Shown here: positions 242-41,311 of the stretch, piece after piece
Numbering within the stretch: position 1 is the stretch's first letter
Layout of the letters: each line of letters opens with the position of its first letter
From: Candidatus Omnitrophota bacterium
GTDB taxonomy: Bacteria; Omnitrophota; Gorgyraeia; Gygaellales; Profunditerraquicolaceae
Direction of reading: 5' to 3'
Assembly: GCA_030693145.1 (NCBI GenBank)
Contig: JAUYBI010000019.1
Span: 1 to 49,062 of the forward strand
DNA length: 49,062 nt
The notes under the pieces: model-generated
Database searches by the model: none
The model's input: only the letters and a program-made list of their open reading frames with translations
Told to the model about the DNA's origin: nothing
Position numbers and translations under genes: made by a program

Positions 242-311
242 GAAAACCAGGGAACGCTTCTATTTTTCCTGGTTAAATTATAAAGAAAAATAGAAACGTT
301 CCCTGGTTTTC
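242..311. repeat. inverted repeat of the GGGACGGTTCTATTTTT type, terminator-like
   Basis: Arms of 26 bases at 242-267 and 286-311 pair with a single mismatch, around an 18-base loop. The arm contains ggaacgtttctattttt, the same motif that frames the composite repeats elsewhere. It starts exactly at the stop codon of the minus-strand gene at 311-1885 and could terminate that transcript. This copy has no GTTTAAAC palindrome inside it. Confidence 0.65.
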
Positions 312-1885
312 TAACTCTGCTGTTTTTTCGCCAGTAGAAGTAATTGCTCTGAATAATATCCGGATGTAATTGCATCTAAAGAAGCAGTTAATTCTTCAAG
401 CTTTAACTGCTTTTGGAATCTTTTATGCCGATCCTCAAGAGCTAAATTATCTAACTCGCTTTTTACTCTTAAACGTTCAAAATAAAGCTTGTTCACCTGG
501 TCTAAAATATCATTCCGTAACTCTACCAATAGCTTTGAACGCACATCAATACTTGTCTGAGCATCGTTCCAGATCAAATCACTCAGATCCCAGGATAAAG
601 AAATATCCCAGTCAATACTCTCTCTTCCCCGGCGCAAAACATCATCGCCACTTTTAGTGGTTGATCCGCCTTCCCAATGCCACAAATCAGTGCTGTTGCG
701 GTCTAAACCAACATTGATCCGCGGCAGGAATGCTTTTTTTGCCGCGTCTTTGCGCCATTGTAATATTTTTTCCGGGTTTACCTGAGCATACTTTATTGCC
801 GCCTCCTGCAAATCTCTTATCCTTGGTTCATCTTTAAGATATTCTCCGGACAACGACGCGCGCGTAAAATTTAAAACGTTACCCCGACTTGACTTATATA
901 TTCCTTTTTCACCGGTAATATAAATATTATTTAAATTGTCTAAAGTAAAATAATTTAACTTGCCCGCGGATAAACCAAAAGATATTTCTAACCAGCGCTC
1001 TTGCGTATAGAGAAAAACTCCTGATGCAGTAAGCGCGTAAAGCTCTAAACTATCCGCTAAACAAATCATCTTTACATCCCGATTTAATAAACCATATTCA
1101 GTCAACTTCTCCCAGCTTTGGCCCCGATTGGCACTCCGATAAACTCCTCGGGCGCTGGAAAAATACAGTAGATTATTGTTGTGTATATCTACCTTTACAA
1201 AATTAATATCCGCCAATTTCCTCGGAGGATCCGGCTCTTCTTTGTCTATCTCTTCACCGGAACCCCCAAGAGAATAACTTACAAAAATTCTTTCCCAGCT
1301 TTCGCCGTGGTCTAAAGATTTGAATATGCCGCTGGAGGCGGCTAAATAAACAGCCGCGTTTTGCCCGCCTGTGGACTCAATATTAAGTATGTAACCGCTG
1401 CCAATCTCTATCTGCTGTTTATGCCAACTACGGCCGTTATCCCTGCTGATAAAAAGCCCGGCTTTTGTTCCCACGAATATAGCCTGGGTAGTGCTCAGTA
1501 CCGCCGTACACTGATTTTCCGATTCAGTTTTACCGCGGAAAATCCTCTCCCAGCGTTCTCCGGAATAACTACTCCGGTATAAACCATTACCGGTAGCCGC
1601 ATAAACAACAAAACCATTATCCTTTGGCATCACTAAAGCATTAATCCGCGCGGACCTTCCTTTTACCGCCAATACCCTGCGCCAACTCTTACCGGCATTA
1701 TCAGTTTTTAATATATTCCCGGATTTACCGGCAAAGATAATTTTATTATCCCGCGCGTTAACTGAAAGCGCTTGGCAATTGAGATTATCCTTTCCAATAT
1801 CTTCCCAGCTAAAATCTCCCGCTAAAAGCACTCCCGCCATCATATTTAACCAAACCATTACGAAGCTAAAAATTATTTTTAACAT
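311..1885 (-). CDS. secreted beta-propeller (BNR/Ycf48-like) protein with TolC-like C-terminal region
   Basis: The 524-residue product opens with a signal peptide ending near LLAG (about residue 23). Residues 25-345 hold at least six propeller-type repeats, each with a G-(L/I)-(Y/F)-(K/R)-S segment followed by G-x-SW-x-(R/K), as in BNR/sortilin or Ycf48-type proteins. Residues 350-524 change character to a helical, charged region: NPEKILQWRKDAAKKAFLPR is typical of the start of TolC-like outer-membrane proteins, and SWDLSDLIWN is followed by a coiled coil. A strong AGGAGGTGG Shine-Dalgarno precedes the ATG. The role is unknown; an extracytoplasmic, possibly envelope-anchored protein is inferred. 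It is preceded by its own intergenic region and is probably monocistronic. Confidence 0.75.
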   Translation of the reverse strand: MLKIIFSFVMVWLNMMAGVLLAGDFSWEDIGKDNLNCQALSVNARDNKIIFAGKSGNILKTDNAGKSWRRVLAVKGRSARINALVMPKDNGFVVYAATGNGLYRSSYSGERWERIFRGKTESENQCTAVLSTTQAIFVGTKAGLFISRDNGRSWHKQQIEIGSGYILNIESTGGQNAAVYLAASSGIFKSLDHGESWERIFVSYSLGGSGEEIDKEEPDPPRKLADINFVKVDIHNNNLLYFSSARGVYRSANRGQSWEKLTEYGLLNRDVKMICLADSLELYALTASGVFLYTQERWLEISFGLSAGKLNYFTLDNLNNIYITGEKGIYKSSRGNVLNFTRASLSGEYLKDEPRIRDLQEAAIKYAQVNPEKILQWRKDAAKKAFLPRINVGLDRNSTDLWHWEGGSTTKSGDDVLRRGRESIDWDISLSWDLSDLIWNDAQTSIDVRSKLLVELRNDILDQVNKLYFERLRVKSELDNLALEDRHKRFQKQLKLEELTASLDAITSGYYSEQLLLLAKKQQS

Positions 1886-35216: not shown

Positions 35217-37421
35217 TCAGAATGACACTGAGGTATCTAGTTCCAGTAATTGGATGCGGGTTTCCTGATATTTATCCGGATCAACCAATCTGTAGATTTC
35301 TTGCGCCTGGCGCCAATATTGGCGGGCCATATTCTTTCTTCCCTGTTTCTTGTATAAAAGGCCCAGATTATAATTTGCATTGGCCAGATTCAGGCGGCTA
35401 TGAATCTCTTCTGATAATCCAACTGCTTGTTTAAAATAATTTTCCGCTTTGCCCAAATCATCAATTTCCAAATAGAGCTCTCCGAGCATATTATAGCCGC
35501 CGGCTAAATTAACTTTATTATCATGCAACTGATCTAATCTTAAGCCTTTAAAATAATAATCTAATGCCTTTTGATACTGTTTTTGAAAAAAATATATTTC
35601 CCCTAAATTAAAATAACAATCGCTTAATTCACTGCTCAATTTCAATTTCTCGAATATTTTCAGGCTCTTTCCATAGAAATCTTTTGCCGCCTCATAGTCA
35701 TTCTTATTTATAAAAACCAGGCCGATATCAAAATAATCACAGGCCAAATTCTTAATATTTTCAAAGTTACCGGGATACTCCAAATTAATAGCAACACTCT
35801 TGGTCAAAAAATCCAAAGCCAGATCATAATTATTTTTATCGATGTGCCAAACAGCCAATTTTCTTAAGGCTAAAGCCTCATTTTGCTTATCCCCTGATTT
35901 CCGGCTTAAATTTATCGCTTTATCATATAGCTCTTTGGCTTTATCATACTGTCCATCAAGCTGATAAAACCACCCCAGTTTGATATAAGCCTGGATAAGG
36001 TGAGCCCGATTATTTAACTTTTCGCTTTTAAGCACATAATCAAAATAATACTTTAGAGCTTTATCTTTATCGCCGGTACGTTGATAAGCATTAGCCAGGA
36101 TAGGATAAACCGCCAAATAATCCAGGTCGGAATTAATCACCTGCTGGCCTAAAATTATAGCTTGCTGATTATTGCCCTGGCGATACGCGGAGGCGGCATT
36201 AAGGAATAAATATAACTTTGTGGGGTTAATCTTAGGCAGCCAAATAGCCAAAAAAATACTCAAACCAATAAAAACAATCGCTAAGCTGATTTTGAAGATA
36301 ACTTTTTTATAAACCAAACTTATTTCGCGCTTAGGATCCTTCTGGCGCGAAAATTTAAAAAAGATAAAACCAGGATCGCCATAGAGCAGATAATTTACCC
36401 AGTGTAAACCAGCCAGCCCATACTCTTTAACTAGCTTTAGCTTTGATAATCGCAGAGACTCCCCCACGCTTACTCCAGAGATAAGTTTAGTATAGAATTC
36501 CAGCGCAAATACCAGGCTGGCATTATCCTCAATTTTACGGATTGAGCCGATATAATGCCTTACCCCGGCAAATAAAAAGGCACTGGCCATACCGTAATTG
36601 GCCCGCTGATACTCTGAATCAATCAAATCCGGATTTACCTGCGCGGAATGGCAGGAATTAGAAAACACCAAAGCCGGTAAACTACAACCCTGCCCCATCT
36701 TAAGTATATCTTCCACCTTAAATACTCCATCGCTTAAAACCCAGCCGTTATCTTTAGACCCTGACTTATCAAACTCGCAGTGGCCGGCAAAATGCACAAT
36801 ATCATAATCGCAAATATTTTTCTTCACATAGTGTTTATCAATATGCGTAGACTTAAAATCAACCTGAACTTTTTTGGTTTTATGGCTGAACTGATTTTTG
36901 ATATTTAAACCTTCCAGATACGCGGATTTTAAATCGCCGCTGGGATTAGCTAAAATTAACATTTTTAAGCTATCCTTTAAATCACGGTATTGCAGCGATG
37001 TAGAGTCTCCTTGGCTGCGGATCAGCCTACCGAGGCTGAATTTTAAACCCAGAAAATCCCCGCCGTCAAAAATCAACTCCCAGGGGATGTGCATCAACTC
37101 CTCATCCAAAAAAAGGGTTAGCGCGCAAGGTTGGCTGTCTTTAAGTTTACTCTTAATTGCACGGCTAAGCAGGTGGTTCCAGAATAATTGGCCAATTTTT
37201 TGCAGGCTCTTTAACTGCTGGAGTTTAGATGCCTGATCCTTAGCCGAATGGTTTAAAACCCCCACCATCTCCAGGCTTAAATGCTTTAATTCAGAAAAAG
37301 AAACCCCCACCTGGCTATAATGCCGCAAGGTGGGGGCAGCTTGGCTCTGATTAAACAGGCCCATCTTAAGTGAATCATCTTGCTTAAAAACTTCTAAGAT
37401 TAGCGATTCCGCATAAAGCAT
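35217..37421 (-). CDS. membrane-anchored CHAT protease with C-terminal TPR repeats
   Basis: The 734-residue protein has an N-terminal CHAT (caspase-like) domain: HIPWELIFDGG, then DIVHFAGH (catalytic His214) and LVFSNSCHSA (catalytic Cys257), with FAGVRHYIGSIR and LHWVNYLLYGDPG closing the domain near 350. A single transmembrane helix lies at about 373-396. Residues 400-720 are at least seven TPR units (such as KALKYYFDYVLKSEK and KALDYYFKGLRLDQ). The protease domain is N-terminal, so it and the TPRs are on opposite sides of the membrane. It starts four bases after the anti-sigma gene. CHAT proteases cut regulatory partners; the zinc-finger protein next door is the inferred target. Confidence 0.88.
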   Translation of the reverse strand: MLYAESLILEVFKQDDSLKMGLFNQSQAAPTLRHYSQVGVSFSELKHLSLEMVGVLNHSAKDQASKLQQLKSLQKIGQLFWNHLLSRAIKSKLKDSQPCALTLFLDEELMHIPWELIFDGGDFLGLKFSLGRLIRSQGDSTSLQYRDLKDSLKMLILANPSGDLKSAYLEGLNIKNQFSHKTKKVQVDFKSTHIDKHYVKKNICDYDIVHFAGHCEFDKSGSKDNGWVLSDGVFKVEDILKMGQGCSLPALVFSNSCHSAQVNPDLIDSEYQRANYGMASAFLFAGVRHYIGSIRKIEDNASLVFALEFYTKLISGVSVGESLRLSKLKLVKEYGLAGLHWVNYLLYGDPGFIFFKFSRQKDPKREISLVYKKVIFKISLAIVFIGLSIFLAIWLPKINPTKLYLFLNAASAYRQGNNQQAIILGQQVINSDLDYLAVYPILANAYQRTGDKDKALKYYFDYVLKSEKLNNRAHLIQAYIKLGWFYQLDGQYDKAKELYDKAINLSRKSGDKQNEALALRKLAVWHIDKNNYDLALDFLTKSVAINLEYPGNFENIKNLACDYFDIGLVFINKNDYEAAKDFYGKSLKIFEKLKLSSELSDCYFNLGEIYFFQKQYQKALDYYFKGLRLDQLHDNKVNLAGGYNMLGELYLEIDDLGKAENYFKQAVGLSEEIHSRLNLANANYNLGLLYKKQGRKNMARQYWRQAQEIYRLVDPDKYQETRIQLLELDTSVSF

Positions 37422-37425
37422 AAGA

Positions 37426-38136
37426 TCAGACCTTAACTTTTAAATCAATTACCGCCTCCCTCTGGCCTTGGCGGCTAACCTCAACGATATAATTACCCGG
37501 GAGAATATTTTCAAAGAGGCTGCTCCCGGAAGCATTAACATAAGACTCCAGCTCCAGGCCGTCTTTGATGAGGGTAATGCGCAGATTTTTATCAACCTTC
37601 TGGCTTTGGCTTTGCTTATCTTTAACCGTAATCGTCAAGTTAAAGCTCTGCGTAGACTTGTTCTGAATTTTAGCGATCACTCTAATTTGCTGCAGGTCTT
37701 TTAAAATACTCACCTCTTCCTTAAACTCATTTATCTTCCTGCCGCGTAATAACGGAGCAGGGATCAGCTCCTGTCCAAAAAGGACATCTCCGGTAGTCTG
37801 AATGATCTCTAAAGCCTTCTCTTTAAGTTTAAGGAATATTTCTAATAAGTTTTCGCGGGCCCCCTCTTCTACTAATTTCTTGATCTTTTCAAGCAATGGC
37901 GCGGGAACAGTTAAGCTTAAATGCGGCTGTATCTTAAGTTGCGTACTTAAATATTCAGCGCACAAGCCGCAACTAAGCGCATGTTTCTGAATCCGCCGCT
38001 TATCCGCCGCAGGAAGGATATCTTCCAAAAAACAGGCTAAACTTTCCGCATCCGGGTGATCCTGGCCGGTGAATCGATTAGCTGCTTTCCACTCCCGATA
38101 AACAATTTTAACGACCTGCTCAAAATAATTAGTCAT
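37426..38136 (-). CDS. soluble zinc-finger anti-sigma factor with beta-sandwich tail
   Basis: Residues 27-60 carry His27, His52, Cys56 and Cys59 in HPDAESLACFLED and KHALSCGLC. The spacing equals the zinc site of the anti-sigma factor ChrR (His6, His31, Cys35, Cys38). The middle (about 75-135) is helical with a hydrophobic end. Residues about 145-236 look like a beta-sandwich of the Cna-B/carboxypeptidase-regulatory kind (VTVKDKQSQSQKV, then GSSLFENILPGNYIVEV). No transmembrane helix is seen, unlike RseA. It sits between an ECF sigma gene and a CHAT protease gene. Confidence 0.82.
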   Translation of the reverse strand: MTNYFEQVVKIVYREWKAANRFTGQDHPDAESLACFLEDILPAADKRRIQKHALSCGLCAEYLSTQLKIQPHLSLTVPAPLLEKIKKLVEEGARENLLEIFLKLKEKALEIIQTTGDVLFGQELIPAPLLRGRKINEFKEEVSILKDLQQIRVIAKIQNKSTQSFNLTITVKDKQSQSQKVDKNLRITLIKDGLELESYVNASGSSLFENILPGNYIVEVSRQGQREAVIDLKVKV

Positions 38137-38238
38137 TATTCTCCCTCTAACTCAATAGACGCATAGAACTCAATAATCTAACAGGTTTTTTAAGTAGACA
38201 TTGTAATAAACTCTGCTGATTTTTATCAATTGTCAAGT

Positions 38239-38310
38239 ACCGTAGGGTGGGTTTAAACCCACCCTACGGTTGTTAATAAGCTGCAGGGGAGGTTTAAATT
38301 TCCCACTACT
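38239..38310. repeat. GTTTAAAC palindrome plus a degenerate second copy
   Basis: A perfect 32-base palindrome (38239-38270, arms accgtagggtgggttt) is followed at about 38283-38310 by a degenerate copy with ggtttaaatttccc. Both lie between the sigma gene and the anti-sigma gene. The rest of 38137-38339 shows no gene. Confidence 0.75.
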
Positions 38311-38339
38311 AAAGCAATAGACGCATGATCAAAGAAAAT

Positions 38340-38939
38340 CTAACCCAAAAATCCTTTCTGCTTAAAACAATCCTGCAATTTCTGCAATATCCTGCTCTTG
38401 CGCATATCCACTGCCCCGCGGTTAATTTTAAGATATTCCTTAATCTCCTCCAGAGATAGCCCCTGATTTAGAAATAATTCGAGAAAATACTGTTCATCTA
38501 ACTCCAGCAAACTAATACACTCCTGCAGGGTCTTACGCCTATCCTGTTGATTAAGAAATTCCATCGCCCCTGCTGAAAGATCCTTAAGGGTATCCCCTAA
38601 AGTAAAACCATCTTCATCCTCTACATCCAGAGAGGCCATCGGCTTAAATTTGCGTAAATAATCAATAGTAAAATTAATCGTAACCTGCCTTAGCCAACTG
38701 GCCAAAGAACAGCCATTTCTACCCTGATAAGTGGATAGTTTTCTATGGTTATCTTTGATTAAGGCATGAAATATCTCTTGAAAGATATCCTCGACTTGCT
38801 CTGGGGAAATACTACGGCCATTAACCGACAAAACACTATGGATATAGTTATAGATCAGGCGGGAATAACGTAAGATGAATTCAGACCAGGATTGCTTATC
38901 TCCTTTAAGACAGCCTTGGACAAACTTCAAATCATCCAT
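38340..38939 (-). CDS. ECF-type RNA polymerase sigma factor
   Basis: The 199-residue product has sigma region 2 (DIFQEIFHALIKD, SLASWLRQVTINFTIDYLRK) and region 4 (LDEQYFLELFLNQGLSLEEI, then LKINRGAVDMRKSRILQKL). The ATG at 38939 is preferred: upstream codons to 38990 are a repeat arm read in frame. A TATAAT with extended -10 ends eight bases ahead of this ATG, which suggests a leaderless message. It heads a three-gene unit with an anti-sigma factor and a CHAT-TPR protease. Confidence 0.9.
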   Translation of the reverse strand: MDDLKFVQGCLKGDKQSWSEFILRYSRLIYNYIHSVLSVNGRSISPEQVEDIFQEIFHALIKDNHRKLSTYQGRNGCSLASWLRQVTINFTIDYLRKFKPMASLDVEDEDGFTLGDTLKDLSAGAMEFLNQQDRRKTLQECISLLELDEQYFLELFLNQGLSLEEIKEYLKINRGAVDMRKSRILQKLQDCFKQKGFLG

Positions 38940-38946
38940 GGCTATG

Positions 38947-38955
38947 ATTATAACA
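38947..38955 (-). promoter_or_regulatory. extended -10 promoter of the sigma gene
   Basis: The minus strand reads TGTTATAAT, an extended -10, with its last base eight bases from the ATG at 38939. The predicted start of transcription is at or within a base or two of the start codon. No clear -35 is seen in the repeat arm upstream. Confidence 0.5.
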
Positions 38956-38961
38956 CAGAAA

Positions 38962-39156
38962 CAAGGTGACGGTTCTATTTTTATTTGCAACAGTAGGGGA
39001 GGTTTAAACCTCCCCTACTGAATAAAAAGAATAAAAAGGGACCGTTTCTATTTTTTCACACTGAATAAAAAGAATAAAAAGGGACCGTTTCTATTTTTTC
39101 AAGCTTAAAATAGAAACGGTCCCTTTTTTGAAAAATAGAAACGGTCCCTTTTTTAG
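38962..39156. repeat. complex composite repeat with duplicated and inverted arms
   Basis: The order is: an arm with gtgacggttctattttt, a perfect GTTTAAAC palindrome (38991-39020), two direct copies of a 41-base unit (39018-39058 and 39061-39101) ending gggaccgtttctatttttt, then two inverted copies of that arm (39107-39129 and 39131-39155). The inverted arms can pair with the direct ones. Nothing coding is seen in 38956-39211. Confidence 0.8.
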
Positions 39157-39211
39157 AAACATCCCCTACTGTAATGAAAAAAGAGAACCGTTCCCGTGTT
39201 TTTAACTTGAA

Positions 39212-41311
39212 CTACTTAAATAACGTATTTTTAATAATAAATGACGCGAAAACAATGGAAACCATGGACATCAGCTTAATTAAAATATTCAAGCTGGGTC
39301 CGGAAGTATCTTTAAATGGGTCTCCCACAGTGTCACCAACCACCGTAGCTTTATGCGCAGCTGACCCCTTACCGCCATAATGCCCTTCTTCGACAAATTT
39401 CTTGGCATTATCCCAAGCACCACCGGAGTTGGCCATCATTACCGCTAAAACAAAACCCGTAACCGTTGCCCCCATCAGCAGCCCGGCAACCGCATCAATA
39501 CCAATTAATAAACCTACAGCTATTGGAGCAACAATTGCCAAGAGAGATGGCGCAATCATTTCTTTCTGCGCGGCCGCGGTAGCAATGGTTACACAGCGCG
39601 CATAATCCGGTTTAGCTGTACCCTCCATAATACCAATTATTTCCTTAAACTGCCTGCGTACTTCCACCACGATTTTACCGGCTGCCCGGCCTACTGCCCG
39701 CATCGTTAAAGAACAGAATAAAAACGGCAACATCCCACCGAGAAACAAACCCACCAACACCGTGGGATTCATCATATTGGCATTTATATCTTTACCAAAA
39801 AGCATAACCTGATCCTTATAGGCGGCGATCAACGCCAATGCTGTCAGGGCCGCTGAACCAATAGCAAAACCTTTACCGGTAGCTGCTGTAGTATTACCCA
39901 GAGCATCCAAAGCATCGGTCCTCTTTCTTACTTCCGGAGGCAATTTCGCCATCTCCGCGTTTCCACCGGCATTATCCGCAACCGGCCCATAGGCGTCAGT
40001 AGCCAAAGTAATCCCTAAAGTGGAAAGCATGCCCACCGCCGAAATAGCAATACCATAAAGTCCGGCATTAAAGTTTGCTGCCCCGCCAGATACAAAAAAG
40101 CTAATCATAATCGCGCCACAAACAATAATTACCGGAATAGCCGTGGACATCATACCCACGGCAAGGCCGCCGATAATTACAGTAGCCGGGCCGGTTAAAG
40201 CAGCATCGGCAATAGAGCGAGTAGGCTTAAATCCGCTGGAAGTATAATACTCGGTACATAAACCAATTAAAACACCCGCGATCAAACCTGCTAATACTGA
40301 CCAATAAACACCCAAATGCTGGACCCCTAAAGTGTATTTAATCAAAAAGAATGAAATTACTGCCACTAAGAAAGAACTGGTAAATACACCTTTACGTAAA
40401 GCTGCCAAAAGGACTTTTTGACTTGCCTGCTCTCCGCTTTTAACAAAAAAAGTTCCAATAATGGAAGCAATAACCCCTACCGCTGCCATCACCATGGGGA
40501 CAGTTACTCCCGCAACGCCTAAACCTGCAGCCACACCTAAAGCTGAAGTAGCGACAATTGAACCAACATAAGACTCATAAAGATCAGCACCCATACCGGC
40601 AACATCGCCGACATTATCACCTACGTTATCCGCAATCACTGCCGGGTTACGGGCATCATCCTCAGGAATCCCCGCCTCTACTTTTCCCACCAGATCCGCG
40701 CCCACATCCGCGGCTTTAGTAAAAATACCTCCGCCTACTCTGGCAAAAAGGGCCATGGAGCTGGCGCCCATACCAAAACAAAGCATGGTGGAAGTAATAG
40801 CGGCAATCTTATCCGTGCCTAAGGGAATAGGGTGACAGGAATAATACCAATTTAGGAAATAATACCAGATACTTAAATCCAATAGCCCTAAACCCACAAC
40901 CGTAAGCCCCATTACTGCTCCGCTGGAAAAAGCAACCCGCAAACCTGAATTTAAACTTTTGGATGCGGCTTGAGCTGTCCGGTTAGAAGACTGCGTAGCA
41001 ATAGACATACCGATAAAACCGGATAAACCTGAAAAAATACCCCCGGTTAAAAAAGCAAACGGCACGAAGATAACCAAATAATTCTTCAAAGCCATCGCCA
41101 GGAGAATAAAAAAAACAACGACAAAAAACATGGAGACGCCCAGATATTGCCTTTTTAAATAAGCCTGGGCACCCACGCGCACAGCTTGAGCAATCTCCTT
41201 CATTTTATCCGTTCCTTCATCCATTCTTAGAATACTTAAAGCCAAATAAAAAGCAAAACCTAAAGCGAGAATCGAACCTACTGGCGCTAATAACAACAGA
41301 TCAAAACCCAT
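39212..41311 (-). CDS. hppA: membrane-bound ion-pumping pyrophosphatase, K+-dependent, likely Na+-type
   Basis: The 699-residue protein with about 16 membrane helices hydrolyses pyrophosphate to pump cations. Key blocks are [36 protein letters not shown] and [19 protein letters not shown]. Alanine in GNTTAA, rather than lysine, marks the K+-dependent class. The glutamate in [12 protein letters not shown] corresponds to the sodium-gate glutamate of the Thermotoga enzyme, so Na+ transport is likely. It has its own promoter upstream. A pyrophosphatase also pulls sulfate activation forward, though no direct link is seen. Confidence 0.94.

Follow-up and report, generated by a model that had tools for sequence, protein, structure and literature searches.

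Which function is encoded by an extracytoplasmic function (ECF) sigma factor gene that is followed by the genes of a zinc protein and a membrane-bound CHAT protein? This question is raised by three consecutive minus-strand genes (35217-38939) in a contig of a Candidatus Omnitrophota bacterium. The whole stretch analysed, 49,062 nucleotides in length, is called the window here; it is contig 24 of a genome that comprises 1.8 Mb and is 94% complete. An original prediction, made from the letters alone, had named the three products as ECF sigma, zinc protein and CHAT protein, and these assignments were confirmed by Pfam and NCBIfam matches and by related loci. The sigma, ZAS (zinc protein) and CHAT genes almost certainly constitute one functional module. 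This module is real and conserved, and is probably a form of the protease-released anti-sigma switch. The best available explanation of its action, which we consider fairly probable from comparative evidence, is that the caspase-like CHAT protease in the membrane would cleave the ZAS anti-sigma protein and thereby release the sigma factor.

Conservation of the gene order

The sigma protein matched sigma-70 region 2 of Pfam over the cut-off (E 5.8e-7), and region 4 remained just under it. Against TIGR02937 (sigma70-ECF) 73.1 bits were reached with a cut-off of 42.9 (E 2e-20). With 199 amino acids it has the sigma2 and sigma4 domains only, as is required of ECF factors, and is a minimal member of this group. 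The choice of its start codon is backed by the placement of the promoter and by the conservation of the N-terminus.

A CHAT-domain scan of 84,980 species genomes yielded 253 relatives. The best 80, nearly all from Omnitrophota, were kept; eight of these loci are cut by contig ends and 72 are informative. ZAS and sigma genes were found directly upstream of the CHAT gene in 71 of them. The 72nd (L094, the same place as L046) contains an assembly gap, behind which the C-terminus of sigma is visible. Within the own phylum, the order sigma-ZAS-CHAT was detected in 26 of 28 loci, the other two being an assembly gap over sigma and a degenerate fragment. The same order is present in all three Nitrospirota loci with this CHAT class, L147 (Thermodesulfovibrionia) and two genomes of its phylum. 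At ten loci of that phylum where the CHAT protein is of another kind, no relatives of sigma or ZAS lie in the vicinity. Thus, the association is tied to this CHAT class and not to CHAT proteins generally. It had been suggested to look for the three-gene order across genomes and to take homologous loci with missing partners as evidence against a joint function; among the informative loci no such case was met for this CHAT class. Conservation of the order is far beyond chance.

Presence and absence of the genes point in the same direction. Of the 145 genomes of the phylum, 27 contain ZAS and the same 27 contain this CHAT class, mostly in one copy per genome; all that is left in a 28th genome is a fragment of ZAS containing a stop. 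A genus-mate (G135) has neither ZAS nor CHAT (sigma was not searched for), which is consistent with a loss as unit. ZAS and CHAT genes are separated by 4 bp in the window and mostly by -4 to +13 bp among the related loci. The distance matrices of the three proteins correlate with 0.94-0.96 (mirror-tree), but such correlations are uninformative under vertical descent.

The CHAT membrane protein

The CHAT domain scored 91.7 bits against PF12770 (cut-off 24) and possesses the His-Cys dyad that characterizes the family. Neither His214 nor Cys257 varies among the distinct CHAT proteins compared (92 of 92), from Omnitrophota and beyond, which supports the predicted dyad. A transmembrane helix at residues 350-425 was detected in 84 of 87 homologues with at least 400 amino acids, and the positive charge is greater on the CHAT side in 80. 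As the helix is conserved with its CHAT side positive, the CHAT domain should be cytoplasmic and thus on the same side as ZAS and sigma. The proposed topology, a single membrane helix with the TPR repeats opposite the CHAT domain, is supported by these data. The TPR region was modelled with predicted local distance difference test (pLDDT) values of mostly 86-97, and helical repeats of TPR type dominate the listed matches in the Protein Data Bank (PDB).

The part outside the membrane differs between lineages. It consists of TPR repeats in the family of the window, of F5/8 type C (discoidin) domains in L058-L060, and of a long insert with TPR in L056; almost nothing is found in L057. Discoidin, LpoB/CsgG and trypsin-like domains are usually extracytoplasmic. 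A fixed output combined with exchanged outer parts would be expected of a receptor or sensor, and this exchange between lineages favours a path from a membrane sensor via cytoplasmic CHAT to the anti-sigma protein. More tentatively, the proteins may represent modular one-component membrane receptors, in which exchangeable envelope sensors or a fused cyclase drive CHAT to cut a soluble anti-sigma protein after an invariant Arg, independently of CRISPR and of site-1/site-2 proteolysis; this wider reading is regarded as quite possible, not yet as probable.

Further architectures were observed. The CHAT protein of L147 (7001-10051) is a CHAT-transmembrane-DUF4384-trypsin-like fusion, with two protease domains flanking one membrane helix. 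In the Nitrospirota proteins L181:3118-6018 and L182:2376-4901, a class III cyclase homology domain precedes CHAT and a CsgG/LpoB-like domain follows it. A link between cyclic nucleotides and the protease by this fusion is possible. A second CHAT protein of 1031 amino acids with C-terminal CHAT domain is encoded on contig 27 of the same genome (L003:6388-9962). Its gene overlaps an upstream gene for 164 amino acids without Pfam match, possibly another kind of protease-partner pair.

The zinc protein

The ligands of the ZAS protein are arranged as H27-x24-H52-x3-C56-x2-C59, which we take to be the ligand spacing of ChrR. The general ZAS pattern, H-x(n)-H-x3-C-x2-C in a short helical domain with an adjoining ECF gene, is present, with HHCC or CHCC in 83 of 88 homologues. 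No transmembrane helix was detected in the protein. Its AlphaFold model (pLDDT 84) comprises a helical N-terminal part and two beta regions. Hence, the description as a soluble protein with ChrR-spaced zinc site and C-terminal beta part proved correct. Among the 28 ZAS homologues searched with Pfam, 19 matched zf-HC2 and seven matched CarboxypepD_reg in the beta part. The top match of the ZAS profile in the PDB was the zinc domain of DdvA, followed by RsiW, 3hug of M. tuberculosis and ChrR; Csx30 is not named among these matches. A Foldseek search with the model gave weak Ig-like matches, none of them with E <= 0.001, and Csx30 is absent among the 50 matches listed.

L060 and L062 have lost all ligands; the other three of the 88 sequences are cut N-terminally. 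The Nitrospirota ZAS protein of L182 is likewise without ligands. The operon and the CHAT dyad persist in L060, L062 and L182.

Arg131 is a candidate for the CHAT cut site, a guess at present. According to DSSP on the model, it lies where a short helix ends or in a loop; it is preceded usually by Leu and otherwise mostly by other hydrophobic residues, and is followed by a stretch of variable sequence. The other invariant residues, R186, S198, F208 and Y216, are all situated in the last beta domain. Arg131 was proposed because weak Pfam matches of some CHAT homologues point to a relationship of this class with the peptidases separase (C50) and gingipain (C25), which cleave after basic residues.

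Six further weak ZAS matches, frames of 740-800 amino acids in L063-L068, were rejected as ZAS relatives, since the three scanned are FtsK. The central ZAS domain (amino acids 71-167, window 37636-37926) weakly resembles the FtsK alpha domain, with E 0.02-0.04 in Pfam and about 1e-4 for the FtsK frames.

Promoter, insertion and repeats

Of 81 distinct sigma starts, 66 are preceded by exact TATAAT, mostly 6-10 nt before the ATG and in 52 cases with TGn. Elsewhere it is upstream of ZAS in one of 35 and of CHAT in none of 28 cases. The operon promoter TGnTATAAT is positioned for a transcript start at or beside the sigma ATG. As this promoter is of housekeeping type and not of the self-activated ECF type, control is probably post-translational: the switch would be made in advance and regulated after translation.

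The gap between sigma and ZAS mostly amounts to about 20-60 bp in relatives and to 203 bp in the window. The excess of 162 bp is flanked by direct repeats of 18 nt and is absent in the sister locus L069, which has a single copy of the repeat and a gap of 41 bp. These features identify it as an evidently recent insertion and not as part of the module design. Palindromes of the type AGGTTTAAACCT were observed at 38937-39215 of the window and at other intergenic sites (16 matches with <=2 mismatches against 3.6 expected). Together with inverted GGGACCGTTTCTATTTT repeats, they represent small repeat elements. Such elements are possibly mobilised by a transposase-like gene adjoining the operon in L103, L106 and L121. 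The features of the locus are summarized in Table 1.

Table 1 Features of the sigma-ZAS-CHAT locus (window positions)
Feature	Position	Strand	Details
Extended -10 promoter TGTTATAAT	38947..38955	(-)	7 nt before sigma ATG, leaderless start
ECF sigma factor gene	38340..38939	(-)	199 aa, ATG at 38939; Pfam Sigma70_r2, NCBIfam TIGR02937
162-bp insertion in sigma-ZAS gap, evidently recent	38147..38308	.	18-nt direct repeat 38147-38164 / 38309-38326; GGGTTTAAACCC palindrome
Soluble ZAS-type anti-sigma candidate	37426..38136	(-)	236 aa; helical zinc domain at N-terminus, two beta regions at C-terminus
Zinc site H27, H52, C56, C59	37960..38058	(-)	HHCC in 76/88, CHCC in 7/88 homologues
Arg131 of ZAS protein, candidate cleavage position	37744..37746	(-)	Invariant 88/88
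CHAT-TM-TPR (TM, transmembrane) membrane protease, predicted	35217..37421	(-)	734 aa
CHAT domain	36375..37202	(-)	aa 74-349; PF12770 E 7.5e-26; His214 codon 36780-36782, Cys257 codon 36651-36653
Transmembrane helix	36243..36299	(-)	aa ~375-393; CHAT side positively charged
TPR region	35235..36212	(-)	aa ~404-729; Pfam TPRs; predicted outside inner membrane

Proposed mechanism and alternative explanations

In the resting state, sigma would be held by the N-terminal ZAS domain. A signal from the envelope would be sensed by the outer domain (TPR in the window) and activate the cytoplasmic CHAT domain, which could then cleave ZAS within its C-terminal beta part or next to it, perhaps after Arg131. 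The residual ZAS fragment would release sigma or undergo degradation, and the freed sigma factor would redirect RNA polymerase.

Several points weigh against this explanation. Binding of sigma by ZAS and cleavage of ZAS by CHAT are inferred from sequence comparison, and the conserved dyad indicates enzymatic competence, but says nothing on the substrate. The assignment of ZAS as anti-sigma is derived from weak sequence matches (E 0.0043 for DdvA) and from context, and the window's own ZAS protein is below the listing score of zf-HC2. The CHAT part of the AlphaFold model is modest in confidence, with blocks of pLDDT of about 26-84, and the CHAT protein of L181 has no transmembrane helix at the hydropathy cut-off applied. 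An autoregulated promoter of ECF type was sought in the upstream regions and not found. No sigma regulon was found either; with the housekeeping extended -10 in its place, a regulon is not derivable.

Of the alternatives, a scaffold switch survives best, though we regard it as unlikely. Here the CHAT receptor in the membrane would bind the complex of ZAS and sigma and free sigma by conformational change, and the protease would act on another substrate or on itself. Direct contact may indeed suffice, as ZAS and CHAT are united in one chain in DdvA. However, a mere scaffold does not need the dyad, which is invariant in all 92 proteins, and in the known cases of CHAT and Lon proteases linked to sigma factors, the inhibitor is cleaved (PMC10028731, PMC11417357).

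A zinc redox switch like ChrR or RshA, in which thiol oxidation frees sigma and CHAT is a downstream clean-up protease, is improbable. The exact ChrR ligand spacing and the HHCC or CHCC sites of most homologues agree with it, and proteolysis of ChrR is stimulated by singlet oxygen (PMC8999054). However, the protease centre is kept where the zinc site is lost (L060, L062, L182); thus, the data agree better with proteolysis than with release by oxidation. A redox switch also leaves the membrane helix and the outer sensor domains unexplained. The host organisms are presumably anaerobic, which was also counted against it.

For an anti-phage or cell-death device, with CHAT as effector protease and sigma switching on defence genes, the probability is very low. 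Csx29 and SAVED-CHAT are proteases of the phage response (PMC10028731, PMC11417357), and ECF sigma factors are carried by EACC2-caspase loci. However, PADLOC, applied to the module and ten neighbours, gave only TPR, transporter-ATPase and PAPS-reductase-like matches, those in the CHAT protein being confined to the TPR region and none falling in sigma or ZAS; the neighbourhood does not qualify as a defence island. Cas1 was searched for in the 94% complete genome and not found, and searches of phage and plasmid records lent no support to a defence link, with no match in phage records. Moreover, the operon neighbours are housekeeping genes (H+-PPase, Rrf2, thioesterase, sulfur/cysteine metabolism), and single copies prevail. 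Comparative evidence supports the module, dyad, zinc site and topology of the proposed proteolytic sigma switch, but the suggested use in phage response and the association with defence islands found no support.

That unrelated genes are only kept together by vertical inheritance is a practically negligible alternative: the flanking H+-PPase and propeller genes are also partly syntenic and the distance correlations are as vertical descent alone predicts, but the order persists in further classes and also in Nitrospirota, the genes overlap or have short gaps and are present or absent jointly, whereas the flanking propeller, present in 117 of 145 genomes, is distributed independently of the operon. 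This BNR/sortilin-like propeller, which lies downstream at a distance of a few genes in about 30 loci of the family, had been considered as fourth part of the module and was rejected, as its position reflects synteny. In the window, an exported BNR/sortilin-like propeller with conserved C-terminal domain is encoded at 311-1885 (-).

Comparison with known systems

In the open-licence full-text literature, no description was found of a module of three separate genes that includes a membrane CHAT receptor. The idea of a joint action of CHAT and anti-sigma outside CRISPR is not new, as DdvA and CHAT genes near ECF54 are known. DdvS/DdvA of Myxococcus xanthus (PDB 8rlz, 8rot/8rw5) resembles the module in uniting CHAT and a zinc domain of ZAS type with an ECF sigma factor. 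Inactivation of DdvA activates DdvS (PMC4374960). The entry 8rot_B (991 amino acids, 'CHAT domain-containing protein') includes the zinc-domain sequence of 8rlz ('Antisigma factor DdvA'), and its C-terminus weakly matches the CHAT profile. Because the zinc-domain sequence is identical, we infer that 8rot_B is full-length DdvA. Zinc and CHAT domains thus appear to form one chain in DdvA, whereas they are encoded by separate genes in all module loci read, where CHAT is N-terminal and followed by membrane helix and outer domain. By analogy, the natural occurrence of both domains in one chain supports a functional connection of the window's ZAS and CHAT proteins. In ECF54 neighbourhoods, CHAT-domain genes are likewise found near ECF genes, but these were described without anti-sigma, and proteolysis of sigma itself was proposed (PMC8999054).

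HetF of Anabaena is similar to the window protein in its described domain order, CHAT-TM-TPR, and its active site is required for function (PMC8406250). It differs by its role in divisome and heterocyst development, and that study reports no ECF sigma and ZAS partners of HetF.

In the type III-E system Csx29/Csx30/CASP-sigma, a CHAT protease relieves the inhibition of an ECF sigma factor (PMC10028731), as is proposed for the module. Activation there is by RNA-guided Cas7-11, whereas the module genome has no detectable Cas1. The window sigma reached 35.4 bits against the CASP-sigma model NF041236 (cut-off 100) and is no member of that family. The original prediction had pointed to this likeness without CRISPR; the separation from CRISPR is borne out, but the idea is not unique in view of DdvA. 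The type III system CalpL/CalpT/CalpS also consists of protease, anti-sigma and ECF sigma (PMC11417357). However, CalpL is a Lon protease that carries a SAVED domain and is activated by cA4; neither CHAT nor a membrane sensor is present. If the proposed mechanism is true, the sigma switch of these two CRISPR systems would be a special case of a wider chromosomal signalling module of housekeeping type, which hints where type III CRISPR systems could have obtained their sigma, anti-sigma and protease parts.

With DegS/RseP-RseA the proposed module would share the sequence of envelope signal, protease, anti-sigma and sigma release. RseA, however, is a membrane-spanning protein that is cut both in the periplasm and within the membrane, whereas in the module it is the protease that crosses the membrane and the anti-sigma protein that is soluble. 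CHAT proteases would then serve as membrane receptors for transcription, and a concrete envelope-sensing pathway would be available for Omnitrophota, a largely uncultured phylum.

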